A stretch of DNA of 64,000 bases from Thermoplasmatota archaeon (GTDB lineage Archaea > Thermoplasmatota > Thermoplasmata > UBA10834): contig JAHIRF010000005.1 of the NCBI GenBank assembly GCA_018818785.1, forward strand, positions 124,001 through 188,000, given 5' to 3'. Below are positions 48,537 to 62,798 of this stretch, in pieces. The position numbers were made by a program, and so were the translations under genes. A model generated the notes under the pieces. The model was not told the origin of the DNA and made no database searches. It was given only the letters and a program-made list of their open reading frames with translations. Position 1 is the first letter of the stretch. Each line of letters opens with the position of its first letter.

Positions 48537-49592
48537 TCAATACATGTCTGCGTATCGAGAGAGTGTACTGATGGCTATCTCCGTTATCCACTGATTCTTC
48601 TCGGGATCCGGCCTCTCGGACCTGTACCAGAATCCATCCTTAGACCTCATCTTCAGAAGCCATCTCACTGCCTTTTCCATGCGCTCATCCTCTGGACCGT
48701 ATCCTAATATGGCCAGGATTTCTAGAGCCGAGAGCCCGCTGCCGAGATATGTTGGGTACTTCAATGTCGTCCAGTTCGTCTCAGACTGCAGTAATGTCGA
48801 GTGATAGTTCCTCTTGAAGAAGCCATCCATGAGAAAATCGGCGCCTCTCAGGACCGCCCTCCTCTTCATCATGTCTGGGTTCCAGACGGCCCCTCTTATG
48901 ACGGCGAGTGTGCTCCACAGGCAGCTTGGAATATGTCTGTACTCATCGGGGTCGTAAGATGGCCGGTCCTCGCTCTCAACCAGTTTCATAAAATTCTTCA
49001 TCTTCATGTGGACATACTCTGGTCGGTAGCGCACATCCTGCAGATACGGAATGTTCCATCCACCATCATGCCGTTGCATGCTCAACAGCCATTTCATGAG
49101 CTTGTCCACTCTCGGGTCGTCCCGCAATCCGAACTCAAGAGAGTTCCTAAGTGCCAATCCGTTGTAGTGCGGTATCGGAAATGCGTCAGTGGTTGGGCCA
49201 GGAATGTACCCTTCCTTGACCTGCCAGCCAAGCATCTTCTCGAAAGAAGCTCGCACATTACCCTCGTCGATCTTGGCAACATACTCCCCGAGCATCAACT
49301 GGTTCCTCAACATGGTGGTGTATGTCCACCCGATTGGCGGCCCAGGCCCGCGCTCCTCCTCCATCCTCCTCAATCTCGATATCGGCCATGTGCCGTCTTC
49401 ACGCAGCGAATCGAGTAGATGCAGTCTAGGAGGGTATGTCTCACATTCTTTGATTGTCTGCTTGAGGACTGGGTCGTCAGAGTCCTTCTTCATCACGTCG
49501 GAAAGGAGCCAAAATCTCACCGGAGGAATCGATATCTGAAGGAGCTTCCTTGCAGACTCGTCCACCGTTCTTCGAATCTCTGTCAACATCAC
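48537..49592 (-). CDS. Squalene-cyclase/prenyltransferase-repeat protein, copy 2
   Basis: A 351-residue paralogue of the adjacent gene, aligned along its entire length: SRKLLQIS.PPV..WLL near the start, EERGPGPPIGWTY, QRHDGGWNIPYLQD, KYPTYLGSGLSALEIL and DGFWYRSERPDPEKNQWITE. The conserved WNIPY and GSGLSAL segments are candidates for a shared pocket. The pair arose by tandem duplication and is probably one transcript. Confidence 0.7.
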   Translation of the reverse strand: MMLTEIRRTVDESARKLLQISIPPVRFWLLSDVMKKDSDDPVLKQTIKECETYPPRLHLLDSLREDGTWPISRLRRMEEERGPGPPIGWTYTTMLRNQLMLGEYVAKIDEGNVRASFEKMLGWQVKEGYIPGPTTDAFPIPHYNGLALRNSLEFGLRDDPRVDKLMKWLLSMQRHDGGWNIPYLQDVRYRPEYVHMKMKNFMKLVESEDRPSYDPDEYRHIPSCLWSTLAVIRGAVWNPDMMKRRAVLRGADFLMDGFFKRNYHSTLLQSETNWTTLKYPTYLGSGLSALEILAILGYGPEDERMEKAVRWLLKMRSKDGFWYRSERPDPEKNQWITEIAISTLSRYADMY

Positions 49593-50113: not shown

Positions 50114-50476
50114 ATGCCGAGTTATCCCAACAAGACTATCAAGAAGGAGCTCGGGAGTTTCAAGCGCAAGGGTGATATGCCTTCGGGCATCAAGCAGTAC
50201 ACGCTTCACAAGATCTTGCCTAGCATCCGCGCAGAGAAGTCGAATGACAAGAATGAAAGACTTCACGGCACGGAGAAATCGAGAACCAAGATCATGAGGG
50301 CATTCGACCACGAAGCGGGAGCGTCTGCTTTGATGGACGGATGGAGGGTTCATTACGATATGATTCGGACTCATCAAACGCTCGTCATGACACCAGCCGA
50401 AGCCGCTGATATTCCGTCATTGCCAGGCTTCAAGTGGTATGAACTAATAAAGCTGGCTAGCAGGCAAAGCTCTTGA
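50114..50476 (+). pseudogene. Remnant of an IS transposase (C-terminal part)
   Basis: The last 70 residues (NERLHGTEKSRTKIMRAF, ALMDGWRVHYDMIRTHQTLVMTPAEAADI) align with the end of the transposase at 53734-54669 (IERFHNTLKDRVKILRGF, LDGFVIQYNFLRRHTSLKGMTPAERAGI). The catalytic domain and zinc ribbon are absent, so this is a decayed copy of a related IS. A degenerate inverted motif TAGTGCGATTCAATAGTG at about 50514-50531 may be the relic of its right end. Confidence 0.7.
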
Positions 50477-50551
50477 ATATCAGAAAATGAAATTTAGAGG
50501 CAAAAATCATATATAGTGCGATTCAATAGTGGGTAACATAAAATCCCCAGT

Positions 50552-51262
50552 ATGACCCTTCTCTTCACGAAAAGGGGAATGCTGGGTTCCACTTCTTCAA
50601 TCATAATCTCCTGGAGGAATGATAAATCGGACGCTATCATATTCATTGATGGAAACAATTTCTATCACAACTCACGATCAATGGGAATTAAGCCTGGGAG
50701 CATAGATTTCGATAAGCTCATCAATTTCATCTGTTTAGAGTTCAAATGCAATAGAAAGCAAGTTCGTTACTACAATTCTGAACCAGATATTTCGGATGGA
50801 ACGAAGAAATATTACGGTGCTCAGAAATTCTTCAGCGAACTAAAAAAGCTCGGTTTTATCGTTCAGACGAGAAAACTCCAGAAGCAATCAAACGAAAAAG
50901 AGATCAATGCAAGGATTAAGGTCATTGATGACGAGGAATATTGTCCTATATGCAGACCACTTGTTGAGAATGCATGTATTCAATGCGTGGGTCGATTCAG
51001 CAAAAAGGAAAAGGGCATTGATGTTTGGATAGCCATTGATATGCTAAATCTTTGTCTGTTGCGTAATGAATGCGATATGTGTATATTAGTGTCGGGTGAT
51101 GGTGATTTTGTTCCCGCCCTGGATATTATCAAGGGATCTGGCAAGGAGGTTGCATCCACATCCGTATACCATGGATATTCGAATCTCCTGAGAGAGAAAC
51201 ATAGATTCAAGACAATAACAGAACAGGAACTCGAAGGACTCTTGAAACAAGATCGTTTTTGA
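50552..51262 (+). CDS. NYN-domain (PIN-like nuclease) protein
   Basis: A 236-residue protein with DAIIFIDGNNFYHNSR (about 26-41), the first acidic site of the NYN fold, a Cys-rich insertion (CPICRPLVENACIQC) that could bind zinc, KGIDVWIAIDMLN, and CILVSGDGDFVPALDII, containing the conserved SGDGDF. NYN proteins cleave RNA and sometimes act as toxins. AT-rich and low in the local codon style, it may be acquired. It borders the left end of the mobile island. Confidence 0.82.
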   Translation: MTLLFTKRGMLGSTSSIIISWRNDKSDAIIFIDGNNFYHNSRSMGIKPGSIDFDKLINFICLEFKCNRKQVRYYNSEPDISDGTKKYYGAQKFFSELKKLGFIVQTRKLQKQSNEKEINARIKVIDDEEYCPICRPLVENACIQCVGRFSKKEKGIDVWIAIDMLNLCLLRNECDMCILVSGDGDFVPALDIIKGSGKEVASTSVYHGYSNLLREKHRFKTITEQELEGLLKQDRF

Positions 51263-51344
51263 CTAATGCACTCAGACTCGCCACCATCCGAAGATTTACA
51301 GCGGAAAACGTCAGACGGAAACCACCCGTTAATTAGACAGAACC

Positions 51345-51353
51345 GAGACCAAG
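51345..51353. repeat. Left 9-base direct repeat (target-site duplication)
   Basis: GAGACCAAG lies flush against the left terminal inverted repeat and is repeated flush against the right one at 61249-61257. This is the signature expected of transposition. IS6-type elements usually make 8-base duplications; the ninth base may be real or a coincidence. Confidence 0.8.
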
Positions 51354-51372
51354 GGCATTGTTGCATTAAGTA
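51354..51372 (+). repeat. Left terminal inverted repeat of the island
   Basis: GGCATTGTTGCATTAAGTA, identical over 19 bases to the complement of the right end. GTCTCCGAAATG at 51386-51397 and TCTGACGATT at 51402-51411 recur in inverted form near the right end and may be additional transposase contacts. Confidence 0.8.
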
Positions 51373-51459
51373 TGATTCAGTAGATGTCTCCGAAATGCTT
51401 GTCTGACGATTCATATGGCCAGTCGTCGGAATATTGTGAGCCCTCATCATGTCACATTC

Positions 51460-52062
51460 TCATTTCAGAGGAACTAGTAGCCACCGATCATGATTAAGGA
51501 AGGGCACGAAGATGTTGCCACCGCTGTCTCTGTTGGCCAAATACGTATGAATCCCGATTTGGTTCAAGGACAGATGCATGAATCGTTCTATGTAGAATTC
51601 CCAGGGTCTCTCCGATGTCGTCCTTGGTTCCTTTTCCAGGAGCTTTAGGGCGGTCTCAGAGCAGTCTTGCAGGTATTTCATGAAGATTGGCCAACCTTCT
51701 TGTCCAAATCCATCTCCCTTTTCTTTGCTGCCCTCTTCTCCAGTATAATCATCACCCGGTTTTCCATGTGCTCCGAAATGTGGTGACGGATCGCTGATGC
51801 CCTTCAATCTTTCTTCGAGCTCGATTCTGATTTCTGCAATATCTGAATCGACCCCATAAAACCTCAATCTGATCTCTGGAGTTTTCGGTTCCAAGACTGG
51901 GCATTCTTCTCTTAGAAAATGCCATCTCATGTCCTGCCTACGCTCTTGCGCACGTTCCTTTACCTCATTCACATAGTTTTTCACAAAGCCAAGCAGGACT
52001 CTATCGAAATCCCCCGCATTTCTCAGATGGATATTTACCTCAACCCACTTGTATTCACTCAT
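51460..52062 (-). CDS. Stand-alone SpaB-C-like (lantibiotic/thiopeptide dehydratase C-terminal) protein
   Basis: A 200-residue protein. YKWVEVNIHLRNAGDFDRVLLGFVKNYV, MRWHFLREE, EIRLRFYG and MHLSLNQIGI follow the layout of the thiopeptide-type domain (W-x-x-x-x-L..., dRWfFiRy, pHlRLRf, HLxLNRLG) found at the end of lantibiotic dehydratases, where it acts as the elimination domain. I see no partner glutamylation domain or precursor peptide. Start ATG 52062 follows AGGTGG. It lies 79 bases downstream of the toxin gene and may share its transcript. The identification is by pattern only. Confidence 0.45.
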   Translation of the reverse strand: MSEYKWVEVNIHLRNAGDFDRVLLGFVKNYVNEVKERAQERRQDMRWHFLREECPVLEPKTPEIRLRFYGVDSDIAEIRIELEERLKGISDPSPHFGAHGKPGDDYTGEEGSKEKGDGFGQEGWPIFMKYLQDCSETALKLLEKEPRTTSERPWEFYIERFMHLSLNQIGIHTYLANRDSGGNIFVPFLNHDRWLLVPLK

Positions 52063-52141
52063 TTGAACCACCTACGGTCATGAATGCGTCTGCTGATAGA
52101 TTATCATTCTTATCTGGGCCAGTCAAATCTGAACGCGGCAC

Positions 52142-52519
52142 TCAACATTCTTCAGGCCAAGGTGTCGATGTTATTCCCTGCATCTTGCGCATTTCCTTAT
52201 GGTTCCCAACCCACCAGCAAATTATCGTATTCTTGGGAACCTCATTGCAGGGGCATCTATGCTTGGTCTGATGAATAGTCCCTATGCATTCCCAGCAGAG
52301 AGTCACGATTATTCGGAGGTCTTTTAGGACCTTTATCTCCCTATCGCCAGCCAGGCCCGCAGTGAGTGGGTAAGTGAAGTGTTTTGGATTCTCAAGAACC
52401 TTCTTCAATTTCTTCTCGATAGCGCTACGCGCTATGGGGTCACCAATACATTTGAGACATTCCTTGAATTTTGGATGAAAAAGAAAAGATGGTGGTTCAT
52501 TCGGACTCAAAGACTTCAC
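52142..52519 (-). CDS. RelE/ParE-superfamily toxin-like protein
   Basis: A 125-residue protein. HPKFKECLKCIGDPIARSAIEKKLKKVLENPKHFTYPLTAGLAGDREIKVLKDLRIIVTLCWECIGTIH resembles the RelE core: two N-terminal helices, a P-L-x-x-x-L-x-G-x-R-x-x-x-V segment, and a strand with R-I-I. It has an unusual Cys-rich C-terminus (HRCPCNE, ICWWVGNHKEM). Start is GTG 52519, overlapping the antitoxin gene by 23 bases. The RelE fold acts on ribosome-bound mRNA; activity here is inferred. Confidence 0.6.
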   Translation of the reverse strand: MKSLSPNEPPSFLFHPKFKECLKCIGDPIARSAIEKKLKKVLENPKHFTYPLTAGLAGDREIKVLKDLRIIVTLCWECIGTIHQTKHRCPCNEVPKNTIICWWVGNHKEMRKMQGITSTPWPEEC

Positions 52520-53183
52520 TCCATGTCAGGAGTTCCTTTGCCTTAAATGGTGTCTCCAGCGTTTCTCTGATCTCTGGGTATCTGTATGAGAACATGAGAT
52601 CCAGAGTTCGTATCCATTCTTTAGGAATCTCAAATTCGTAACTGACATCCCGCAGCTTGATCGGATTGAGCAATGGGGTACCATCTGGTATGTCGTCTAT
52701 CTTTGCCGTCGAGTCTCTATAGGGAACTTGGCATCTGTGACTCAGATCCCTCAATTCCCTACCAGTATACTCTCCAAGATGGTGAATCCAACCACTTAGA
52801 TGGTCGATTATTGGGGCGTTCTCTCCCGAATCAATGAACTCAGACATCTGGGAGACAAGCTCTTTCCCTTCCTTTGTTATCGCCTCGATAGCTTTGTTCT
52901 GACCTTTTAACTCTACGAATCCAATCTGGTTAAAGAGGTCAAGGTCCTTGACAATCTCAGCACTCATCGGTCCATGTGTCCATTTAAAGAATTGGTAATT
53001 GATTCCTTTTATCCGCTTTACCTGAGCATCGTACTGATTGAAAAACGCGGTCTTCTGAATTTTCCATTTATCCAAAGTGCCATATTCAGAAAGCCCATTC
53101 ATTGTGTACAATAACAGCACTTTGTTTATAATCTCATCAACCTCTGCGAGGTCGTCCATCTCACCCTGCTCGACGCTTATCAT
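52497..53183 (-). CDS. Panacea/SocA-like (DUF4065) antitoxin domain protein
   Basis: A 228-residue protein. DKWKIQKTAFFNQYDAQVKRIKGINYQFFKWTHGPMSAEIVKDLDLFNQIGFVEL matches the Panacea pattern, in which a KLQKLLYF-like helix is followed by a Y-x-x-GP-x-S segment and a strand. Panacea proteins neutralise diverse toxins encoded next to them. It is upstream of the toxin with a 23-base overlap, as in a type II module. A TATA-like CATATTATAC lies near 53250. Confidence 0.7.
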   Translation of the reverse strand: MISVEQGEMDDLAEVDEIINKVLLLYTMNGLSEYGTLDKWKIQKTAFFNQYDAQVKRIKGINYQFFKWTHGPMSAEIVKDLDLFNQIGFVELKGQNKAIEAITKEGKELVSQMSEFIDSGENAPIIDHLSGWIHHLGEYTGRELRDLSHRCQVPYRDSTAKIDDIPDGTPLLNPIKLRDVSYEFEIPKEWIRTLDLMFSYRYPEIRETLETPFKAKELLTWSEVFESE

Positions 53184-53527
53184 TCCTATCCGTCCAAACG
53201 ACTATCTATTCCATCAAATTCTCACTTTCACGGGTGCCAATGTTAGCTAGTATAATATGATTTTGATATGTCATTCAGCGATATTAAGCTTGCCGACTGA
53301 CGCATTCATAATGATTTCATACCGGGATTTTTTGTATGCTGGCTAACAAATTCTAGAAATGAGAACGCGGCTCAAATCATTCGATAGACTGAAACGACTT
53401 GTTTTCGACGACCCCACACTTCAGCTCGGGCTAGAGGATTTCGGCCTGGCTGGGGATAGCTACTTATACAACACGCACCAATTAGGGTATATTGAGGGTG
53501 CAAATAACCCCTCTTGGATGGGACGGT
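53184..53527. other. Intergenic region upstream of the antitoxin and the IS
   Basis: This 344-base gap holds the antitoxin promoter (TATTATAC near 53250, minus strand) and a plus-strand TATA-like ACTTATACAA near 53461-53470, upstream of the small IS-associated gene. GTTAGC (about 53240) and GCTAAC (about 53342) form a loose inverted pair. Frames open here lack coding character. I could not find the left end of the internal IS. Confidence 0.4.
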
Positions 53528-53662
53528 ATGGAAGTAACGATACCCGATGCCGACATAGTGATCGAGGCCGGAGTAACGGAAGATGGCCGGATATACGGCC
53601 TCAAGAAGTACGCTGGCCGTACGGTCAAGATTGTCGTGCTAGAGGAGAAACGGAAGAAGTAA
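53528..53662 (+). CDS. Small DUF2080-like transposase-associated protein
   Basis: A 44-residue frame encodes MEVTIPDADIVIEAGV, then GRIYGLKKYAGRTVKIVVLE and a basic tail. The G-R-x-Y-x-x-K-x-x-G-x-x-V-x-V-V-L-x-E pattern resembles DUF2080 proteins, usually encoded just upstream of archaeal transposases. Their role is unknown; an AbrB-like DNA-binding fold is plausible. A GC-rich hairpin separates it from the transposase. Confidence 0.55.
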   Translation: MEVTIPDADIVIEAGVTEDGRIYGLKKYAGRTVKIVVLEEKRKK

Positions 53663-53685
53663 ATCGACACCAAACAACAATGGGT

Positions 53686-53718
53686 GACTGGGCCGGAGGT
53701 TGCCGCCTCCGCCCAGTC
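53686..53718 (+). repeat. GC-rich hairpin between the two IS genes
   Basis: GACTGGGCcGGAGG (53686-53699) pairs with CCTCCGCCCAGTC (53706-53718) with one bulged C and a six-base loop. It could attenuate transcription or translation of the transposase, whose ribosome binding site GGGAGG (53719-53724) starts directly after the stem. Confidence 0.65.
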
Positions 53719-53733
53719 GGGAGGCCCGATACC

Positions 53734-54669
53734 TTGAATATCAGACCCCCAGAGAATCACATCAAGCTTGAACCGAATAAGACTTTCGCAGGTAGGACCG
53801 AAACTGGTCATGTAGGATGCAAGTTCTGCAAGAGCCACCAGGTCGTCAAGAATGGCAAGCGTGGCGATAAGCAGCTCTACAAGTGCAAATCATGTGGCAA
53901 GCAATTCGTAGACAATGAATGCTTTCCGAGGATGCGCACCAGTGCACGAGCAATCTCCGTCGCTCTCGAAGCCTATTTCGATGGTCTCTCACTCGCTAAG
54001 GTCGTCAATCTTCTGAGGCGCGTGTATGGAATCACCATAAACAGGGCGACAGTCTGGAGGTGGATTCAGAAGTACGTTCCTTTGGTCAAGAAGATGATGG
54101 GCCAGTTCACCGCCAATGCAACTAGTTCATGGCACGCAGATGAGACTGCAGTGAAGATCAAGGGAAATATCCATTGGTTCTGGGATGGCATCGATTATGA
54201 TACGCGCTTCATCGTGATGGGTTTGCTCACTCGAAGACGTTCTGTCTCTAACGCTCGCAAGTTCTTCATTGGAGCCAAGGCACAAGTGGGCGGAAAGGCT
54301 CCTGGAGTCATAGTGACTGATGGCTGTGGCTCCTATCGGAAGGGTGTCACAAAGGCGTTCTGGAGAAAGGTCCAGCTTGGAGAATGCACTCTTATCCAGA
54401 AAGCTGGGTTAAGGGCTAGGTTGGGTAAGCTCTCCAACAATGTGATCGAACGATTCCACAACACCCTCAAAGACCGTGTCAAGATTCTAAGAGGATTCGG
54501 GAGTCGAGGTGGCGCATCAACTGCCCTTGACGGATTCGTGATTCAGTATAACTTTCTTCGAAGGCATACCTCATTGAAAGGTATGACTCCTGCAGAAAGG
54601 GCTGGAATCAGACTACCGACCGTGATGGGATGGGGCGACCTCATACAGTGGTCTCTGAAGCGTTCATAG
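53734..54669 (+). CDS. tnp: DDE transposase with N-terminal zinc ribbon (IS6/IS240-like)
   Basis: A 311-residue transposase. CKFCKSHQVVKNGKRGDKQLYKCKSCGKQF (about 29-58) is a zinc ribbon; a helix-turn-helix follows (SLAKVVNLLRRVYGITINRATVWRWI). The DDE triad is readable as WHADETAVKIKG, IVTDGCGSYRKG and NNVIERFHNTLKDR. The C-terminus ends in RHTSLKGMTPAERAGI. I place the start at TTG 53734 behind GGGAGG, because upstream codons cover the hairpin and the small gene in other frames. No frameshift or stop is seen, so it may be active. Confidence 0.85.
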   Translation: MNIRPPENHIKLEPNKTFAGRTETGHVGCKFCKSHQVVKNGKRGDKQLYKCKSCGKQFVDNECFPRMRTSARAISVALEAYFDGLSLAKVVNLLRRVYGITINRATVWRWIQKYVPLVKKMMGQFTANATSSWHADETAVKIKGNIHWFWDGIDYDTRFIVMGLLTRRRSVSNARKFFIGAKAQVGGKAPGVIVTDGCGSYRKGVTKAFWRKVQLGECTLIQKAGLRARLGKLSNNVIERFHNTLKDRVKILRGFGSRGGASTALDGFVIQYNFLRRHTSLKGMTPAERAGIRLPTVMGWGDLIQWSLKRS

Positions 54670-54686
54670 TGCAATAGTGCAGATAC

Positions 54687-55559
54687 TCACTTAGGTTTTC
54701 TGAAATGCATCATGTTGTGATGTTGATGGTTTATTCTGTATGCATATGGGTATCCGAAAGGGAACAATGGCTTGACGGGCTGGAGCAACACAACGGTCCC
54801 TGAGAACTCGTAACCAATCTTCTCCATCATTGGCACTATGTCTGCCTGGACGCATTTCTCCTTCTTCTTCACCGTGAAGTCGCTCATTATGAGAGTGCAA
54901 TATCTACCGTTCCTAAGCCTGGAGAAGGTCTTCGACATGATGTCCGAGAGAGACTGAATGAACCCACTGTACTCATCGATATTGCCCAAGTCGTTCTTTC
55001 TGTCAGTGTAGCAGGCTACACCTTCTCTCGCCCCCATGCGATACAGTTTCCCATTGTGCTGTCGTATCCCCTTTCCATTGTTCTTGAGGATGTTATGGTA
55101 GGGCGGAGAGGTCACCACGTAGTCGACCATTGGCACATTATCGAGTTTCTTCAGGGAGTCGCCGATGATATACTCGTATTCTTCTAGATCTCTCGACCTC
55201 AGTCTCTTCTGGGCAATCTTCTTGTAGTCTGCATTTATGTCAATTCCTATTGCTTTTCGTCCTACCTGGTTGGAGGCAAGCAGTGTCGTTCCGCTCCCAG
55301 CGAACGGGTCAAGCACCGTCATCCCTTTCTTTGTGAACAACTCGACAAGTCTTTGAATATCCCTGACGAGAAATGGTGCGGGATGACTGTAGGCTTCCTT
55401 GTCGTCTGCGCAGCCAACAGATTGCCAGAAGCTGCCGGATAGTAGGAGCCAGTCACGTCCTGACAGATTGTTCAGCTTATTCCTAATATCATATTTGCCA
55501 GGCTTGTTCTCCTCCGACAGGGGCTTCCTCGGGTTCTTCTTCTCGGTTGTACTCTTCAT
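54687..55559 (-). CDS. DNA methyltransferase (N4-cytosine/N6-adenine type)
   Basis: A 290-residue enzyme. SHPAPF (about 58-63) precedes the SAM-binding motif DPFAGSGTT (84-92) and GIDINADYKKIAQKRL, then the catalytic motif TSPPY (150-154). The order, SAM motif before SPPY, is that of the gamma class. Its ATG overlaps the TGA of the large methyltransferase (ATGA, 55556-55559), so both are made together. The target site is unknown. Confidence 0.87.
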   Translation of the reverse strand: MKSTTEKKNPRKPLSEENKPGKYDIRNKLNNLSGRDWLLLSGSFWQSVGCADDKEAYSHPAPFLVRDIQRLVELFTKKGMTVLDPFAGSGTTLLASNQVGRKAIGIDINADYKKIAQKRLRSRDLEEYEYIIGDSLKKLDNVPMVDYVVTSPPYHNILKNNGKGIRQHNGKLYRMGAREGVACYTDRKNDLGNIDEYSGFIQSLSDIMSKTFSRLRNGRYCTLIMSDFTVKKKEKCVQADIVPMMEKIGYEFSGTVVLLQPVKPLFPFGYPYAYRINHQHHNMMHFRKPK

Positions 55560-58000
55560 TTCAATTCCTTTGCCGTTCGTGTGATTTCCTTGATGGTTGG
55601 CTCGGAGAACCCTGCTAGACGCTCAACATCTCTATATGTTAGGTATCTCCAACTGTTTTCCTCGAATGCTCTGACGAACAGAGGGTCACAAACCCTCTTC
55701 AATTCCGATTCCCGAGCTATGGGTATTACCATGAACTTGGGAATTGTCTTCTCCGTGTTGGATGCTCTTTGAATGGCTGATGTGAATCCAGTGGAGTTCT
55801 CAACCTCGAAAACGCATTCTATGGACGCCCCATCTTCTGATAGCCAGAGGACATCAATCATCTCTATTCGTTCCAGTTTCAATGATTCATAGCTGCCACT
55901 GAGGGTAGATAGGTCCACAAATGTCGAAAGGTCACGAAGAGGCTTGTTGAAATCGTAGAATTCGGGCTGCTCTCGTTTTCCCACGAATACCGAGAATCCG
56001 TTCTTCCTTCCTGCGGCACAGAGCAAGCTAATGATGCGGCTGTGTTCACCAACCGTTTTCACCACCACATCCTTTATCTTCCAAAATCCACCAGCTCGAG
56101 AGGCGTACTTCTCCAATACCTTGACGATGCCACGTGGGTCGGGAGTGAGGCCATTTGGGTATGTCTGGAAGAGTTCTCCGATGACATCGTCAAGTCTCAC
56201 AGAAACTCTTCTTCTGAGTATGGACAGAACTAATTCCTCCACACGGTCTTGAAGTGGTCTGTCTGGGTAGTTAATGTGGCTCTGCGGTTCTCTGAACCAC
56301 CATATGTCGCCAGAACCGTCGAATTCGTTCGGCATCACTACGAATGTGCCCTCCTCCCCAGCCTCTCGTCTCAGAACTCTTTCAATTTCCTGGCTGTAGT
56401 CTCTCGGATGGATGTATCCTGCTTGGATCATCTCTGGAATCAACCCCGCAACAATGAACGTGTATGGTGTAGGTTCGTTTCGAATCGCGATTATCTCTAT
56501 GGCTTTCTGCACAATGAAATGCTCTAGACCAGACTGGTCATCGGTAAAATCCACATCCCTGCGTTTGACACATCGTATGTAGAAGTCGGCTCCAGACGTT
56601 CCATACGGATTAGAGACGTTGGATTCACCCGACCTACGATTGTATTGGTGTGTCACTTTGTCGAATCTAAATCCCGCTATCTTGACTGCATTCACAAAGT
56701 CGTTCCATTCGCGGATCTTCTTGTGGTGGAATGTCACCACCAAGTAGCCATCATCCTTGAGCACTTGATGCATTTGCTTGAACGCATTCGCCATTCTCGT
56801 TCTGTACTGCTCTCTACTAGCTAGACCCTCCTTTATCGTAATCTCAGAACTGAGATCGGGCGCGTATTTCTTATCCACTTCCTTGAGCCAGACGAGCCAT
56901 ATCAGACTCAGGTCAAGATAGAAGACCAATCCTGCGTATGGAGGGTCCGTGATTATGAAGTCGATGCTTTTCTCTTTAACGTACTTTGATAAATCCGCCA
57001 CATCCAGTGTCCCATAGTTAATGTCCTTGCTCCCGTCGATTTTCTTCTTGACGTTGAGACATGAGACAGATATGTCTTTCTTCAACCTCTTCTTGGCGTC
57101 AATCATTGCTGAGCGAACACTTTGTTTACCCAGGCATGCCCTCTCGAAGATGATTAGAGGGTTCTGTTCAAGGGATTTGCTTCGTATCATATAGTCGGCT
57201 CTTCCCCAACTCCCTGAGAAATCTCTTTGGGATGCCTTGCTTCTGGGAACCACCATCTTGAATGTAAGATGGAGTGTCTGGATGAATCCATACAGCAACT
57301 GATGACGAATATCTCTGTCGTCGACCTTGAGTATCTTGTCGAATATTGATGAGAGCAAGTACAGGTTCCTCCTTGTCCAGAGGAACTCGAAACTGTCCCC
57401 ACCCACATCTAGGATGAATTTGTGAGTAATGGATGGTGTGGTGGGAAACTTATCCTTTGGATACTTGAATGGTATATCGATGCTCAGCATCTGAATCGCT
57501 TTCTCTCTGTCAACATCCTCCGCCGGAAGCCGATATTTCTTGCCCGAATTCGTTTCTAGGCACACTTCGTCAACGTTTCCAGATTTCCATCTGTAATTGT
57601 ATACATGAGTGCCCTGGCCCTGATGGAGTCTCATGTAGTGCTCCTTGTACACCAAATCCGATTCTATCGCTTCCTTGATTCTCAGGAACTCTTCCACGAA
57701 TCTTGGCTCATCGAAATTCGTGTCGAACACCTCTATCGTGAACGATGTGATTGGATTCAAGTCGAAGCACAGTGCTCTCCTTCGTGCAATGACCGTCTCA
57801 AATGCGGACATTGCGCTGCCAGCAAAAGGATCAAGCACCAAGCCACCAGGTGGGCAGTAGCATTCAACATATCTCCGCCAGATATTGTGAGGTTTCTTCC
57901 CCCAGTACTTCATTGCGGTGTACATCGGAGGACGAACATCTTCAACGAGAGCGTAATTGATGTGCGTCACTGCGAAATCAGTTTCCTGCTGCCCAATCAA
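55556..58000 (-). CDS. Large DNA methyltransferase with nuclease-like C-terminal domain
   Basis: An 814-residue protein. KYWGKKPHNIWRRY and LDPFAGSAMSAFE (about 56-68) form the SAM site, and FIITDPPYAGLVFY (about 345-358) the catalytic DPPY, resembling DUF1156-type methylases. The region after 480 is not methylase-like. Residues about 710-790 (IDVLWLSEDG, IECVFEVENSTGFTSAIQRASN, KFMVIP) look like a PD-(D/E)XK nuclease core in which E-x-E replaces E-x-K. TTG 58000 overlaps the RHH stop. It may be a type IIG-like or BREX/DISARM-like modification enzyme; nuclease activity is inferred. Confidence 0.8.
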   Translation of the reverse strand: MIGQQETDFAVTHINYALVEDVRPPMYTAMKYWGKKPHNIWRRYVECYCPPGGLVLDPFAGSAMSAFETVIARRRALCFDLNPITSFTIEVFDTNFDEPRFVEEFLRIKEAIESDLVYKEHYMRLHQGQGTHVYNYRWKSGNVDEVCLETNSGKKYRLPAEDVDREKAIQMLSIDIPFKYPKDKFPTTPSITHKFILDVGGDSFEFLWTRRNLYLLSSIFDKILKVDDRDIRHQLLYGFIQTLHLTFKMVVPRSKASQRDFSGSWGRADYMIRSKSLEQNPLIIFERACLGKQSVRSAMIDAKKRLKKDISVSCLNVKKKIDGSKDINYGTLDVADLSKYVKEKSIDFIITDPPYAGLVFYLDLSLIWLVWLKEVDKKYAPDLSSEITIKEGLASREQYRTRMANAFKQMHQVLKDDGYLVVTFHHKKIREWNDFVNAVKIAGFRFDKVTHQYNRRSGESNVSNPYGTSGADFYIRCVKRRDVDFTDDQSGLEHFIVQKAIEIIAIRNEPTPYTFIVAGLIPEMIQAGYIHPRDYSQEIERVLRREAGEEGTFVVMPNEFDGSGDIWWFREPQSHINYPDRPLQDRVEELVLSILRRRVSVRLDDVIGELFQTYPNGLTPDPRGIVKVLEKYASRAGGFWKIKDVVVKTVGEHSRIISLLCAAGRKNGFSVFVGKREQPEFYDFNKPLRDLSTFVDLSTLSGSYESLKLERIEMIDVLWLSEDGASIECVFEVENSTGFTSAIQRASNTEKTIPKFMVIPIARESELKRVCDPLFVRAFEENSWRYLTYRDVERLAGFSEPTIKEITRTAKELK

Positions 58001-58143
58001 TTCTTGCCACCTCTCTGTATCCAGTTGAGGATGGCCTCTTCGACCGCAGCCTTGATGTCGCCCTTCTTAAAACCGCCAGACCGTTTGTAGATCTCGTCAC
58101 GCAGAGCTTTGTCGACCTCGTGGGAAATCTCAACCTTGGTCAA
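57997..58143 (-). CDS. Ribbon-helix-helix regulator-like small protein
   Basis: The 48-residue product reads TKVEISHEVDKALRDEIYKR, then SGGFKKGDIKAAVEEAILNWIQ. This is a short beta-strand followed by two helices, as in CopG/Arc-type dimers. The start is TTG 58143 and its TGA overlaps the TTG of the large methyltransferase. It is first in a three-gene operon and directly behind five tandem 8-base repeats, so it is probably an autorepressor controlling methyltransferase levels. Confidence 0.65.
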   Translation of the reverse strand: MTKVEISHEVDKALRDEIYKRSGGFKKGDIKAAVEEAILNWIQRGGKN

Positions 58144-58156
58144 GTTATCGCAGATG

Positions 58157-58196
58157 TATGCACGTAAGTACTTATGTACTTTGGTACTTTAGTTCC
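58157..58196. promoter_or_regulatory. Five tandem 8-base repeats upstream of the RHH-methyltransferase operon
   Basis: The plus strand reads TATGCACG TAAGTACT TATGTACT TTGGTACT TTAGTTCC, with exact 8-base periodicity and consensus TaxGTACT. RHH proteins often bind tandem direct repeats of this type. The array starts 14 bases before the RHH start codon and covers the expected core-promoter zone, so occupancy would block transcription. Confidence 0.7.
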
Positions 58197-58257
58197 TAAG
58201 TGTCTGTAACCGGAGCCCTGCGCGTTGATGGGTGTGTTACCGAAGGTAGGACACATC

Positions 58258-58740
58258 TCATCTTCGTGGCTGGTAAACCTTCTTATGATAACCATTTCGT
58301 CTGAAGAGCTTATATGCTCGCGTGTAGACGTTTCGCCAATCACCCTTGCTCAGGTCCTTGTAGTGACAATTGAGGCCCCGTCTCGTCTTTGAAGCGATAT
58401 AGTCTAGACAGCGATGACCATAGGCGATTCTCACATAATCGGTTGCAGTTTCTGGGCGAATTCCTATCGAGCCGACAAAACCGTCAATCATGTCGCGTAT
58501 CCCCTCAGGAGAATGCCAATAATCGAGGTCACGATGGTCTGGGCCAAATTTCTTTGCGTTCTTGTCCATTCTTCTATGAACGCTCGTTCCGTCAGTATCC
58601 TCGTATATCACTCCGTTCTTCACGAGGCGTTTCTCATCAAAATCTAGATGATAGTCCAGAGATGGCACCATTTCCACCCGGAGGCATAGATGCCCCTTCG
58701 GCCTATTGATGATATTGCAGATCCCATCTGTTAGAGTCAA
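58258..58740 (-). CDS. Unknown protein, island cargo A
   Basis: A 160-residue soluble protein I do not recognise. The centre has RMDKNAKKFGPDHRDLDYWHSPEGIRDMIDGFVGSIG with clustered His and Asp residues, and the C-terminus is basic (TRRGLNCHYKDLSKGDWRNVYTRAYKLFRR). The start is TTG 58740, overlapping the upstream TGA, so it is coupled to the next gene. Confidence 0.55.
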   Translation of the reverse strand: MTLTDGICNIINRPKGHLCLRVEMVPSLDYHLDFDEKRLVKNGVIYEDTDGTSVHRRMDKNAKKFGPDHRDLDYWHSPEGIRDMIDGFVGSIGIRPETATDYVRIAYGHRCLDYIASKTRRGLNCHYKDLSKGDWRNVYTRAYKLFRRNGYHKKVYQPRR

Positions 58741-59300
58741 GAACTCCGAGGTTCCCGCTCTTTCTCCCGCTTTCCAACAATTTTCATCAGCTGAGGGATG
58801 TCCTTCTCCACCCTGGCCGATAGCTTTTCAATTGCCTTCATTACAGGTCTGATTTCAAATGTCGAATTCAAGAATACGACGGTCATCGTGGGAGCATCGA
58901 AGAAGCCAAAATGAGGTGCATTGAGGGGCAGCATCGTGTGCTTCTGGAAATTCACTCCCCCTCTCCTGAAGCCAGGGTTGGCCTTCATCCACTTGTCGAG
59001 CCTTTCGTCGAAGTGGTCGAAATGGTCCCTCATCTTGCGTGAGTTCAACGGGGATGTTTCGAGGATGGAGAATCGCGACTTCAGATGCCTTGCCCTTTCT
59101 TGGCACCTTTCCGATTTGTTAGGTGGCCAGAATGATCTAGAAATACCTGCGGATGAACGGAGCAAAGCCTTCAGACAGAACCAGACCCGATCAGCATCTC
59201 GAACAGCAATGCTGCACAACAGACCGCGATAAGCCATCTTGGCGTGCAGACAATCGTCTTCCAGTGAGTACTCGAAACCAAGAATCTCCATATCCTCCAT
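58737..59300 (-). CDS. Unknown protein, island cargo B
   Basis: A protein of about 187 residues, no recognised family. The start ATG 59300 follows AGGTGA with a four-base gap; the in-frame ATG at 59333 is weaker. SFWPPNKSERCQERARHLK and FRRGGVNFQKHTMLPLNAPHFGFFDAPTMTVVFLNS are its most distinctive parts. It overlaps cargo A by four bases. Confidence 0.5.
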   Translation of the reverse strand: MEDMEILGFEYSLEDDCLHAKMAYRGLLCSIAVRDADRVWFCLKALLRSSAGISRSFWPPNKSERCQERARHLKSRFSILETSPLNSRKMRDHFDHFDERLDKWMKANPGFRRGGVNFQKHTMLPLNAPHFGFFDAPTMTVVFLNSTFEIRPVMKAIEKLSARVEKDIPQLMKIVGKREKEREPRSS

Positions 59301-59553
59301 GCGGTCACCTAATGATGATATGGGATGTCCCATCTCTTAGGATGTATGATTCTGGGCTTCTTCCTTTGGACAAGATCGGGCCTTGGCTCTCCATCGCTTC
59401 CTAGCGGAATCATGGTCATACAACTGAGAACCCTCTCGATTGTCATATGGTTTTGGGCTGCATGTAGGCTACAGGATTGGGCTGTACTATCGGCTACCCG
59501 CAGTCAATACACTTATATGTGCCACTTGAGTAGAATGCATCCAAGGGAATACC

Positions 59554-59769
59554 GTGAAGTCATACGAAAGAGCAAGGAGCGCCGAAGGGAAGAAGAGAGA
59601 GCCGTACTGCGCCAAGGTGAGCATCGTCGAAACCCAGATGCGAAACATGTGGCCGGATGCGTACTTGATGCCCAGAGAAGCGTACTTGATACACCTGCGC
59701 ATCCTGATTAGCGAGATGACTGCGTTGATAAAGGCGACCGAGGCTGAGATCAAACGAGTAGAAAACTGA
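59554..59769 (+). CDS. Possible small helical protein
   Basis: A 71-residue frame from GTG 59554, helical and basic (KSYERARSAEGKKREPYCAKVSIVE, LRILISEMTALIKATEAEIKRVEN). A TATA-like CTTATATG lies near 59511-59518. A competing frame from ATG 59537 gives MHPREYREVIRKSKERRREEE; which is used is unclear. There is no recognisable family. Confidence 0.3.
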   Translation: MKSYERARSAEGKKREPYCAKVSIVETQMRNMWPDAYLMPREAYLIHLRILISEMTALIKATEAEIKRVEN

Positions 59770-59776
59770 TTGGTGG

Positions 59777-60460
59777 TTACTCGGAATCTGAAGGAGGCAA
59801 CGAATACAGTTCCTTATCTACCATCTTGTTGAACTCCAGCTGAGCATTGCGCGCCTCCTTATACGTCTCATTCGCATCCAATGAAGACATACCTGCGAAG
59901 AGGATTAGCACGGACCCAACGACAATCGCTGCAATCTGAAAGCTATCTCCCACCAGAGAGTATGCCAGTATTAAGAATCCCATGCCTAACAGACATATCA
60001 TCGCACGGAGGACCAGCGAGGAACACTTGTCTTCGGCAGTCCATCCCTCAGTGTAGAGTGTTGACACCTTCTCACACTCCCCGAACTTGCTGGTCAGCTC
60101 TTCTGTCAATTCCTTGAGTTGGCCATGCTCTTCGGGCGTAGGGGGCGTCTTCTCAATAAGCGCTTTGACTGCATTGAGGACTTCTGATGTGTCCTGGTCC
60201 TCAGTCATTGCCTTAATGAGACTTTTCCGAATCTCCGCAAATTCAGGGTTTCGCTTCAGGATGTTATCGATCTGTTGAACCGATTTCGTGAGGTACGTGA
60301 GGAAGAACTGATTGACAAGTCTTGAGCGCATAGCTACGTGTTGGTCCCTCCCTTCTTTTCGGAACCTCTCCGCATGAGATCGCAGGTGAACGAAGAGCGC
60401 CACCAACGCGCCCCCACCGACCAAACACGCGGCTCCAATCGCAACAAAATCATCGGCCAT
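59777..60460 (-). CDS. Membrane protein of unknown function, candidate partner of the upstream gene
   Basis: A 227-residue protein with an N-terminal membrane helix (about 6-25), a helical cytoplasmic-looking middle, and two helices near 148-168 and 172-190. No family is recognised. It follows the Panacea-like gene with nine bases between them, so the two form a likely pair; a membrane-acting toxin is one speculative possibility. Confidence 0.6.
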   Translation of the reverse strand: MADDFVAIGAACLVGGGALVALFVHLRSHAERFRKEGRDQHVAMRSRLVNQFFLTYLTKSVQQIDNILKRNPEFAEIRKSLIKAMTEDQDTSEVLNAVKALIEKTPPTPEEHGQLKELTEELTSKFGECEKVSTLYTEGWTAEDKCSSLVLRAMICLLGMGFLILAYSLVGDSFQIAAIVVGSVLILFAGMSSLDANETYKEARNAQLEFNKMVDKELYSLPPSDSE

Positions 60461-60469
60461 AGTCTCTCC

Positions 60470-61099
60470 CTATTCAACTGGCGGTCCTTCGTACTCGGAC
60501 TCCTTCGCAAATGATGGATAGTGCTCGTACACGTGCGTTATCAAATCATGAATGGGCATCATATTGTACTGTATCTTGATGTCTACGAGCCCCTGTCTCA
60601 AGCGCGGTTCAAGCGAATCGTAAGCCATCCTTGCTCGTTCAAAACCTTCAGGAGTCAGGCTATAGACTTCACTCCCGAAGCCTGAGGTAATCTGGATGAG
60701 CCCTTTCCTAATCAGGTCTGAGAAGTCATTCCAAGCACCGTCTGAATACGGCCCGTACTTGTATGGTCGAAATGAGTAGAACCCTTTGACATCTTTGAAT
60801 CGCATCAAGAAGAGAAACAGTTCCTTCATGAGCCGTGTCTTCCCCGCAATCGGTTCGTTGTATCGCTGCCTCCTTCCACCCGCGAAGAGAAGCATCAGTA
60901 TCCAGTCTTCTAGTCGAGTAGGAATCTCGCTAATAGTGGCTTTCCTCTCTTCCCAGGGCATCCCTAGCATTTCCCGAATCGCTCCCTTTCGAGAGCCATT
61001 ATACCATTTGTGCCATTTAAGCCTAGGCCACTTCTGAGGGTGCTCATCACCATCACCCGACTTGTGACAGAACTGGCAGGACCAGGTTCGTTCATTCAT
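60470..61099 (-). CDS. Panacea-like winged-helix protein with N-terminal zinc-finger-like motif
   Basis: A 209-residue protein. CQFCHKSGDGDEH near the N-terminus may bind zinc. The middle, AGKTRLMKELFLFLMRFKDV then FRPYKYGPYSDGAWNDFSDLIRKGLIQ, resembles the Panacea core (K-x-x-L-x-K-x-x-F, Y-x-x-GP-x-S, and GLI strand), ending in a Y-x-L-T-x-x-G-x-x-x-A turn. This is weaker than the 52497 protein. It is nine bases upstream of a membrane protein gene. Confidence 0.5.
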   Translation of the reverse strand: MNERTWSCQFCHKSGDGDEHPQKWPRLKWHKWYNGSRKGAIREMLGMPWEERKATISEIPTRLEDWILMLLFAGGRRQRYNEPIAGKTRLMKELFLFLMRFKDVKGFYSFRPYKYGPYSDGAWNDFSDLIRKGLIQITSGFGSEVYSLTPEGFERARMAYDSLEPRLRQGLVDIKIQYNMMPIHDLITHVYEHYPSFAKESEYEGPPVE

Positions 61100-61229
61100 A
61101 TCCGAGGTCTATCCAATCAAAAAGGCACGATTCCCAGGCTCAAAGTGAGTCTGACGCCCTGAAGGTGCCCATTTCGGAGACCTCTGAAATCGTCAGAATC
61201 TCGTCTGACTGGACTACCCAGATTCATCC

Positions 61230-61248
61230 TACTTAATGCAACAATGCC
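61230..61248 (-). repeat. Right terminal inverted repeat of the island
   Basis: The minus strand reads GGCATTGTTGCATTAAGTA inward from 61248, identical to the left end. The inverted subterminal matches are AATCGTCAGA at 61188-61197 and CATTTCGGAGAC at 61170-61181. Confidence 0.8.
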
Positions 61249-61257
61249 GAGACCAAG
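61249..61257. repeat. Right 9-base direct repeat (target-site duplication)
   Basis: GAGACCAAG, the same sequence as at 51345-51353, abuts the right terminal repeat and lies five bases before the promoter palindrome of the downstream RHH gene. Confidence 0.8.
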
Positions 61258-61261
61258 AAAG

Positions 61262-61285
61262 GTATAAATACTCACGAGTTTATAC
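61262..61285 (+). promoter_or_regulatory. TATA box within a 7-base inverted repeat, promoter of the RHH-ftsZ2 genes
   Basis: GTATAAA (61262-61268) and TTTATAC (61279-61285) are perfect inverted arms spaced ten bases apart. The first contains the TATA box TATAAATA. Transcription would start near 61290, giving a leader of about 50 bases. The symmetric arms are a plausible operator for the encoded RHH protein. Confidence 0.6.
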
Positions 61286-61338
61286 TGACATTTGTCTGAC
61301 AATTCGAGCAATATCGTCCGACGCCGGGAGACTTCCAA

Positions 61339-61653
61339 ATGGTCGAGTCAGAGCGTGTCACGATAAGACTACCGAATGAGCGCGTCCAGGCGCTCCAGGC
61401 TCTAGTGGATCAGGGGAAGTTCTCCACGCTCTCCGACGCGATCAGAGCCGCGATAGACAAGTTCGTCGAGAGCGAATTCACACCAGAATATATAGAGAAG
61501 GTAACAGTCGAGCTGCCTAAGGGCAATGTCGTGAACCTGAAGCAGCTGGTTCAGGACGGCGACTCCGTTTCTGTAGACGACGCCATCAGAAACGCTGTGC
61601 GCGAATACATACGCAAGAGATTGTCACAAGCGATGCAAGAACTCGAAAGGTGA
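61339..61653 (+). CDS. Tandem ribbon-helix-helix regulator (CdrS-like), adjacent to ftsZ2
   Basis: A 104-residue protein of two RHH units: RVTIRLPNERVQALQALVDQGKFSTLSDAIRAAIDKFVE (about 6-45) and KVTVELPKGNVVNLKQLVQDGDSVSVDDAIRNAVREYIRK (about 53-95). The polypeptide could bind DNA as an intramolecular dimer. In haloarchaea a related short RHH protein, CdrS, controls ftsZ2, so this neighbour arrangement fits a division regulator. That role is inferred from family and position. Confidence 0.75.
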   Translation: MVESERVTIRLPNERVQALQALVDQGKFSTLSDAIRAAIDKFVESEFTPEYIEKVTVELPKGNVVNLKQLVQDGDSVSVDDAIRNAVREYIRKRLSQAMQELER

Positions 61654-61748: not shown

Positions 61749-62798
61749 ATGCTCAACAAGTTGATCCAGGATGCCCTCGAGACGGAGCGCGACTTCGAGG
61801 TACATCTTGCTCCGAAGATATGCGTCGTGGGCTGCGGTGGCGGCGGTTCGAACAGTGTGCACAGGATCAATAGAGTAGCGCTGGAAGGTGTCGACACCAT
61901 CGCTATCAACACGGACAAGTTCCACTTGGCCAGGACCGATGCGAAGAAAAGGCTGCTCATAGGCGAGCATGCGACATTCGGATATGGCACGGGCGGAGAC
62001 CCCGATATAGGCGAGAAGGTAGCGTATGACGCGATGGACAAGATAGAGGCGCTGGTGCGCCAATACGATATCGTGTTCGTCACGGCTGGCATGGGCGGCG
62101 GAACGGGCACGGGAGTCGCGCCAGTCGTAGCAGAGGCTGCGCGAAGACACGGCGCGATATCAGTCGCACTCGTGACGATACCCTTCGATATCGAGAAAGG
62201 GAGGTTGCGCGTCGCGTTCAACGGGATCGCGAAGCTGAGGGAGAGCGCTCACAGCACGATCATACTAGACAACAACCGTCTGTTGAAGATCGCGCCCAAG
62301 TTGCCGATCGAACAGGCGTTCATGGTGATGGACCAGCTCATCGTCGAGGTCGTCAAGGGTGTGACCGAAACGGTGTGCGAGACCAGCATGATCAATCTGG
62401 ACTTCGCAGACTTCAGGAGCCTGATGCTCAAGGGTGGCGCGTCCACCGTGCTCTACGGTGAGAGCGAGGACGCTCAGAAGGTGGTCGCAGAGGCGATCAG
62501 CAACCCACTACTGGATATCGACTTCGAAGGCGCCACAGGCGCGATGATCCATCTCACCGGTGGTCCGTCGCTATCCCTGCGGAAGGCGTACGAAGTCTTC
62601 AACGGTATCACGAACAAACTCGGAGATTGCGCCCACATCAAACTGGGCGCAAGAATAGATCCGGACATAGGCCAGAGCATCAAGCTGATGGCGATAGTCA
62701 CCGGCGTCCGGACACCCGAAGATACGGACGCGTTCAGGCTCCCAGAAATAGACGGGCTGATCAGCGCCCGGATCGCCATGGCAAACGTGTTAGGATGA
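61749..62798 (+). CDS. ftsZ2: Cell division protein FtsZ (FtsZ2-type)
   Basis: A 349-residue tubulin-like GTPase: [13 protein letters not shown], the G-box GGGTGTG (106-112), and the T7 loop NLDFAD (206-211). It has FtsZ2 traits: ILDNNRLLKIAPKLPIEQAFMVMDQLIVEVVKGVTET and GATGAMIHLTGGPSLSLRKA. It is clearly distinct from the FtsZ1-type pair at 40605-42957. Ribosome binding site GGGAGGTG precedes ATG 61749. The C-terminal tail is short. Confidence 0.93.
   Translation: MLNKLIQDALETERDFEVHLAPKICVVGCGGGGSNSVHRINRVALEGVDTIAINTDKFHLARTDAKKRLLIGEHATFGYGTGGDPDIGEKVAYDAMDKIEALVRQYDIVFVTAGMGGGTGTGVAPVVAEAARRHGAISVALVTIPFDIEKGRLRVAFNGIAKLRESAHSTIILDNNRLLKIAPKLPIEQAFMVMDQLIVEVVKGVTETVCETSMINLDFADFRSLMLKGGASTVLYGESEDAQKVVAEAISNPLLDIDFEGATGAMIHLTGGPSLSLRKAYEVFNGITNKLGDCAHIKLGARIDPDIGQSIKLMAIVTGVRTPEDTDAFRLPEIDGLISARIAMANVLG

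Follow-up and report, generated by a model that had tools for sequence, protein, structure and literature searches.

What kind of mobile element occupies positions 51354-61248 of the 64,000-nucleotide stretch of Thermoplasmatota DNA analysed here (the window, from contig JAHIRF010000005.1), and how would it have come to lie directly upstream of the promoter of a cell division operon? An initial annotation had described this 9.9-kb interval as a cargo-carrying archaeal transposon with IS6-like ends, a reading supported by its terminal and target repeats, by an internal IS6-family transposase and by an empty site in a related genome. Judged from its sequence, the island is one transposon composed of an IS6-family DDE transposase gene and about ten passenger genes. 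It very probably belongs to a promoter-homing family, spread across Thermoplasmatota, whose members place one end ~14 bp upstream of the TATA boxes of particular genes. The internal transposase, the remnant of an IS6-like element on the left, the promoter on the right and the wider element family had been overlooked in the initial annotation.

Structure and boundaries of the island

The island is delimited by GGCATTGTTGCATTAAGTA, whose two exact copies form perfect 19-bp terminal inverted repeats (TIRs), and is flanked flush on both sides by the 9-mer GAGACCAAG, the target-site duplication (TSD); both repeats stand where they had first been placed (Table 1). Similarity between the TIRs continues to 23 nt at 96%, and the shared motifs noticed earlier just inside both ends correspond to a genuine second, subterminal inverted pair (51382-51397 / 61170-61185). 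The GG tip and cTGTt core of the island tip, GGCATTGTTGC, agree with the IS6 consensus quoted in PMC7986276. No third copy of GGCATTGTTGCATTAAGTA with three mismatches or fewer is found in the window (chance expectation 0.03; two copies in 0/100 shuffles). The whole 1.97-Mb genome has only two copies of the island end, both at the island, which rules out the dispersed genomic repeats that the initial annotation had named as a possible objection.

The island has ten main open reading frames (ORFs). Its transposase scores 141 bits against the IS6-family model NF033587 (cut-off 125), also matches DDE_Tnp_IS240 and carries a zinc ribbon; the DDE triad is invariant across an alignment with its relatives. 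Mutator-type models fail on this protein (IS256, 24.7 bits vs a cut-off of 150; ISH6, 15.3 vs 240), and no TnsA/B/C or TnsD/TniQ was found among the Pfam and NCBIfam matches of the ten main ORFs. No other full-length copy of the transposase gene exists in the genome, and the gene has no TIR pair of its own. A composite or pseudo-compound transposon, in which two insertion sequence (IS) copies flank the cargo, is ruled out by this arrangement of one full-length, internal transposase gene and one pair of ends.

To the right of the island, the 9-mer is followed by AAAGG, the presumed B recognition element (BRE), by the TATA box TATAAATA, by a ribbon-helix-helix gene (rhh) and by ftsZ. The TATA box of this rhh-ftsZ operon begins exactly 14 nt from the island end. 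The ribbon-helix-helix protein is likened to CdrS, an archaeal cell-division regulator, scoring 62 bits, short of the 100-bit cut-off of the halophile model; cdrS and ftsZ2 are a conserved pair across archaea (PMC7439475). To the left, the 9-mer abuts the end (AGACAGAACC) of an older IS6-like element (element 1) that once encoded an IS6-like transposase of the SWIM clade. An NYN-domain gene (50552-51262) interrupts it and is seemingly a later insertion, because in G001, a genome of the same genus, the transposase frame continues to the element end. Note that a second copy of the end of element 1 lies on another contig (L008/L082, G000:C3:60813-60878) beside a permease gene, where a DUF3800-like gene is adjacent and a transposase gene is not.

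In G001 a single 9-nt unit, CAGGTCTAA, lies between the end of the older element and AAAGGTATAAATA, and the junction has no gap. It follows that the island entered the window by an insertion in which this 9-mer was duplicated. The empty site predicted by the initial annotation thus exists as a single 9-mer beside rhh, its partner being the older IS6-like element and not, as had been expected, the NYN gene.

The cdrS site in related genomes

The orthologous rhh gene has an IS6-like end 14 nt ahead of its TATA box in G001, G003, G005, G007, G008, G009, G010 (two contigs), bin4 and Hel0.bin85; such an end was looked for and not found at the rhh promoters of G004, G006, G011 and L091. The combination of a GGCATTGTT-type end with a TATA box is found at this promoter only among the 20 genomes searched. 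Two related genera hold different elements at the same point. The cdrS-site elements of other genera mostly have no recognisable IS6 transposase and are therefore non-autonomous, decayed or moved in trans. G014 has a stack of several elements at the site, separated by the spacers AAGGTCTAG and CAGGTCTAG, an arrangement that serial insertion at a regenerated site would leave. This array (L078, G014:C17, 8956-12000) is built of IS6-ended modules with the same 9-mer between them; a transposase is absent and the cargo comprises a clostripain-like peptidase and a repeat protein.

Distance to the TATA box across Thermoplasmatota

IS6-like transposases were searched across the class and then in other families of the phylum, and elements were called by TIR and TSD, G030 and G044b being counted on their TIRs alone. 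The class-wide search yielded further single-unit elements of 1.7-7.4 kb, nearly all with one end about 14 nt ahead of a TATA box; the relatives as a whole span 1.7-9.8 kb and carry cargo. Sites were scored for the consensus YTTAWATA at an offset of 12-16, taking the better of the two sides, with random positions of the same loci as null. The summed TATA score is 96 against 58.3 +/- 3.5 for the null, with 0/20,000 draws as high and a sharp peak at 14. For the newly fetched families, with calls made by TIR and TSD only, all five elements fit (35 vs 21.7 +/- 2.0; 0/20,000). Two more f10 elements follow the rule; one comes from an additional genome that has tandem ends. Among non-redundant cellular elements, 15/16 reach a score of at least 6 of 8 at an offset of 13-15 (null mean 1.6, maximum 8 in 50,000 draws), and a pattern scan of transposase loci gave 22 matches vs 0 in the control.

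The aligned sites read 8-9-bp TSD, N, AA, NN, TATA, with a position-specific signal in the AA (BRE) and the TATA box, and the duplication therefore falls just outside the presumed BRE. Of the 19 surveyed elements whose repeat is exact, 13 have a 9-bp TSD and six an 8-bp one. The two copies of a TSD are identical within an element and differ between genomes, which favours repeated insertions over one old inherited event.

Target genes and transposase clades

Representatives of the main types of target gene were identified by family models. Elements target smc in nine genomes, ftsZ in six cases within f10 and one in G044, and a thermosome gene in three; cdrS-ftsZ, hsp20, dnaK and tbp are also targets, as are a few unidentified genes. 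They include important host genes for cell division, chromosome segregation and chaperones. The ftsZ-directed element of G044, a genome of a different family of the class, is a 4.2-kb IS6-like element (L113/L114, G044:C1:2897921-2902130) with a SWIM-like amino terminus and an 8-bp TSD, located directly upstream of the gene.

Transposase clades largely track the target, as far as the trees indicate. The f10 ftsZ-directed transposases form one clade (99/94), the smc-directed ones require one change on the tree, and those directed to hsp20 and dnaK group together (100/98). G180 and G092 each have one element at smc and another at ftsZ, while G144 has one at smc and one at hsp20, with transposases from the matching clades; since these genomes host different clades at different targets, the target follows the transposase within f10.

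Against a background of ~2-3% of random 130-mers, the palindrome GTCNGAC is found in the target promoters of cdrS, ftsZ (f10), smc and G150, and many element ends of the window's family have it at fixed positions. It is missing from most f10 ends and from the thermosome and hsp20 target promoters. A role as universal end motif is ruled out: outside the window's family, in which it is common, the palindrome is sporadic. Both GTCNGAC copies, located downstream of the TATA box in the putative operator of the rhh gene, are also conserved in related genomes. Palindromes at fixed positions are common to this putative CdrS operator and both island ends, and suggest that the element may be under host cell-division control.

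Proposed mechanism and alternative explanations

The promoter-homing reading draws on what can be read in the DNA itself, namely the boundaries, the TSD, the transposase, the empty site, the fixed spacing, the recurrent targets, the tandem arrays and the match between clade and target. Several observations weigh against it. G224 has no TATA box at the right distance and is the sole misfit among the 16 non-redundant cellular elements, and two IS6-like elements with 8-bp TSDs from IMG/VR viral contigs (L305, L307) have no clear TATA box; the viral relatives, with two elements called and the TATA signal absent, were dropped as additional support. Thermosome-directed transposases do not form one clade, nor do the two cdrS-directed ones, and G030 and G044b entered the survey yet have no exact TSD. 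The scarcity of IS6 transposases among the cdrS-site elements of other genera also counts against it. Most transposase loci gave no TIR and TSD pair, and many of them are truncated at contig ends. Noticed by eye at first, the TATA rule was tested afterwards, then on newly fetched loci. The hosts checked by name are metagenome-assembled genomes, the window genome has one copy of the island, and its movement was not observed.

In the proposed mechanism the IS6-family DDE transposase would recognise the 19-bp ends and join the 9.9-kb unit to the target by a 9-bp staggered cut. Strand transfer would be directed just upstream of the BRE by contact of the transposase with promoter-bound TBP/TFB, and the island's own transposase probably moved this copy. 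Gene specificity may come from a promoter-bound regulator or from promoter DNA, for instance CdrS at GTCNGAC. Insertion would leave the promoter intact, duplicate 8-9 bp outside the BRE and regenerate the insertion site, so that later elements can insert between an older one and the promoter, building up tandem arrays. The chances are about even that this is, in full, a single-transposase cargo family docking on TBP-TFB at the BRE/TATA of particular genes, with clades dedicated to cdrS/ftsZ/smc or to heat-shock promoters and with some ends carrying the palindrome of the target's regulator.

The alternative that survives best, possible if on the unlikely side, keeps the homing and replaces the TBP/TFB contact: a sequence-specific regulator, such as a CdrS-like protein on GTCNGAC, would bridge the element ends and the promoter. 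The fixed positions of the palindrome in many ends of the window's family make a CdrS-like protein a candidate tether, and its presence in the cdrS, ftsZ (f10), smc and G150 promoters well above the random frequency speaks for such a bridge. Its absence from most f10 ends and from the thermosome and hsp20 promoters counts against this tether, since the TATA spacing holds in all of these.

It is rather doubtful that the island was moved by another enzyme, for instance a SWIM-type IS6-like transposase acting in trans, with the internal transposase as a passenger. Element 1, which lies at the same point, encoded an enzyme of the SWIM clade, and several cdrS-site elements have no transposase, both of which speak for mobilisation in trans. 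However, the internal gene is intact, unique in the genome as a full-length copy and devoid of TIRs of its own, and its close relatives lie in TIR-bounded elements at TATA boxes (G150, G044b, G030), which argues for the island's own transposase.

Ordinary targeting with a loose AT bias, the promoter-proximal position resulting from loss of gene-disrupting insertions by selection, is improbable. Archaeal genomes are compact, with little intergenic space, and the promoter is intact at every site, which speaks for this reading. Yet under selection every position upstream of the BRE should be open, without a peak at 14 nt, intergenic positions drawn at random from the same loci have no such signal, and the same few genes recur following the transposase clade and not the host. 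Very improbable is a set of old insertions that took place once per locus in a common ancestor and were inherited vertically, with a shared position that reflects orthology: the right ends at the cdrS site are very similar among the g3 genomes, element 1 is common to g1 and G014, and the smc and ftsZ transposases group by locus, but TSDs identical within an element and different between genomes would not outlast long divergence, and the G001 empty site, the repeated 9-mers of the G014 stack and the different elements held at one point by two related genera disagree with such inheritance. Some individual cases may be vertical after all.

Comparison with known transposons

Members of the IS6 family are mostly 700-1760 bp long and generate 8-bp repeats; only one (ISDsp3) has a passenger gene, and cargo is otherwise mobilised between two IS copies (PMC7986276). 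The island shares with IS6/IS26 a DDE transposase above the NCBIfam cut-off of the family, the GG tip and TGTT core, and direct target repeats. It differs by its 9.9 kb with about ten passengers within one TIR pair, by its 9-bp repeat and by its fixed promoter position. Its transposase is thus IS6-family, while the element departs from two IS6-defining features, size without cargo and the 8-bp repeat.

The bacterial TnGBS, ISLre2 and ISKra4 (p-MULT 3 and 4) elements have Mutator-type transposases and insert upstream of sigma-A promoters at a distance of 15-17 bp; it was proposed that such DDE elements, some of which have large cargo, contact the transcription initiation complex (PMC3942029). 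They are, like the island, DDE elements found at a fixed distance upstream of promoters, which here is 14 nt to the TATA box. Unlike them, with their sigma-A -35 box, Mutator-superfamily transposase and no bond to particular genes, the island family combines the archaeal TATA/BRE, an IS6-family transposase and the same few genes. For archaea, PMC3942029 records no more than a preference of the ISH6 family for AT-rich sites. An analogue of the proposed mechanism is Ty3 of yeast, which integrates beside promoters via general transcription factors by TFIIIB tethering (as cited in PMC3942029), yet Ty3 is a long terminal repeat retrotransposon of a eukaryote that targets RNA polymerase III genes.

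A safe site beside an essential gene, tandem stacking and defence genes aboard are features shared with Tn7. That transposon inserts at attTn7, downstream of glmS, using several Tns proteins with a dedicated target selector. The island family, in contrast, has one transposase and inserts upstream of promoters. Defence cargo is also known from Tn7-like elements (PMC8649781). Reports of TATA-directed or SWIM-containing archaeal transposons were not found in the literature searched, which took in few subscription journals, and the element family is apparently unrecognised so far. A plasmid search gave distant bacterial IS6 matches only (<60% identity).

Cargo and features of the locus

The initial annotation had assigned methyltransferase and toxin-antitoxin genes to the island. 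The former stand, as two adjacent DNA methyltransferase genes with solid matches; the latter are weak, with matches below the Pfam cut-off (ParE, E=0.12; SocA/Panacea, E=0.0018). The methyltransferases suggest a defensive cargo. Defence-like passengers, methyltransferases and others, recur in other elements: a methyltransferase and Panacea in G250, a methyltransferase with an Mrr domain in G150, a type I-like methylase in G217 and a SIR2-like protein in G452. An element of near-equal size to the island (9.8 kb), with GGCATTGTT tips, lies upstream of a thermosome gene in G342 (L285 1858-11654); it carries an Eco57I-type restriction-modification enzyme and a protein with the TIR protein domain. 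Outside the island, a squalene-hopene cyclase/prenyltransferase-like gene lies close to the insertion site, at 48537-49592 of the window, and two copies lie near the site in G014.

Table 1. Positions in the window of the island, its genes and its flanking features.
Feature	Position	Strand	Remarks
Older IS6-like element (element 1), same site	50114..51344	+	Transposase fragment 50114-50476; end ...AGACAGAACC; interrupted by NYN gene
Left copy of 9-bp target duplication, GAGACCAAG	51345..51353	.	One 9-nt unit here in G001
Left TIR, 19 bp	51354..51372	+	IS6-like GG tip and TGTT core
Left subterminal repeat GTCTCCGAAATG	51382..51407	+	With GTCTGAC palindrome at end position 48
Passenger	51460..52071	-	Weak Lant_dehydr_C match
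Passenger	52142..52519	-	Very weak ParE-like match
Passenger	52497..53183	-	Weak SocA/Panacea match
IS6-family DDE transposase with zinc ribbon	53359..54669	+	Conserved part from about 53794
Possible small ORF, 44 aa, upstream of transposase	53528..53662	+	No family match
Passenger, N4/N6 DNA methyltransferase	54687..55559	-	
Passenger, large DNA methyltransferase	55556..58000	-	PglX/type II-like
Passenger, small ribbon-helix-helix ORF	57997..58143	-	Weak RHH_6 match
Passenger	58258..58740	-	No function assigned
Passenger	58737..59333	-	No function assigned
Passenger	59777..60460	-	No function assigned
Passenger, candidate defence protein	60470..61099	-	PDC-M19A / type I specificity-like
Right subterminal region	61149..61209	-	Inverted GTCTCCGAAATG copy and two GTCAGAC palindromes
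Right TIR	61230..61248	-	
Right copy of 9-bp target duplication	61249..61257	.	Directly upstream of presumed BRE
Presumed BRE (AAAGG) and TATA box (TATAAATA) of target promoter	61258..61270	+	
Putative operator	61294..61322	+	Two GTCNGAC palindromes 22 nt apart
Host target gene, CdrS-like ribbon-helix-helix regulator	61339..61653	+	
Host ftsZ	61749..62798	+	Downstream of rhh gene

Significance

The island shows that an IS6-family transposase can go together with a large passenger load inside one pair of ends. If the fixed-distance rule holds experimentally, the family would be an archaeal, single-transposase promoter-docking system parallel to yeast Ty3 and bacterial TnGBS, the reading of a promoter by an archaeal transposase would become directly testable, and a possible tool to place DNA beside a chosen archaeal promoter would be at hand. 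The promoters of division and chaperone genes would then be landing sites, and the rule would explain how defence-like islands enter compact archaeal genomes without breaking genes.

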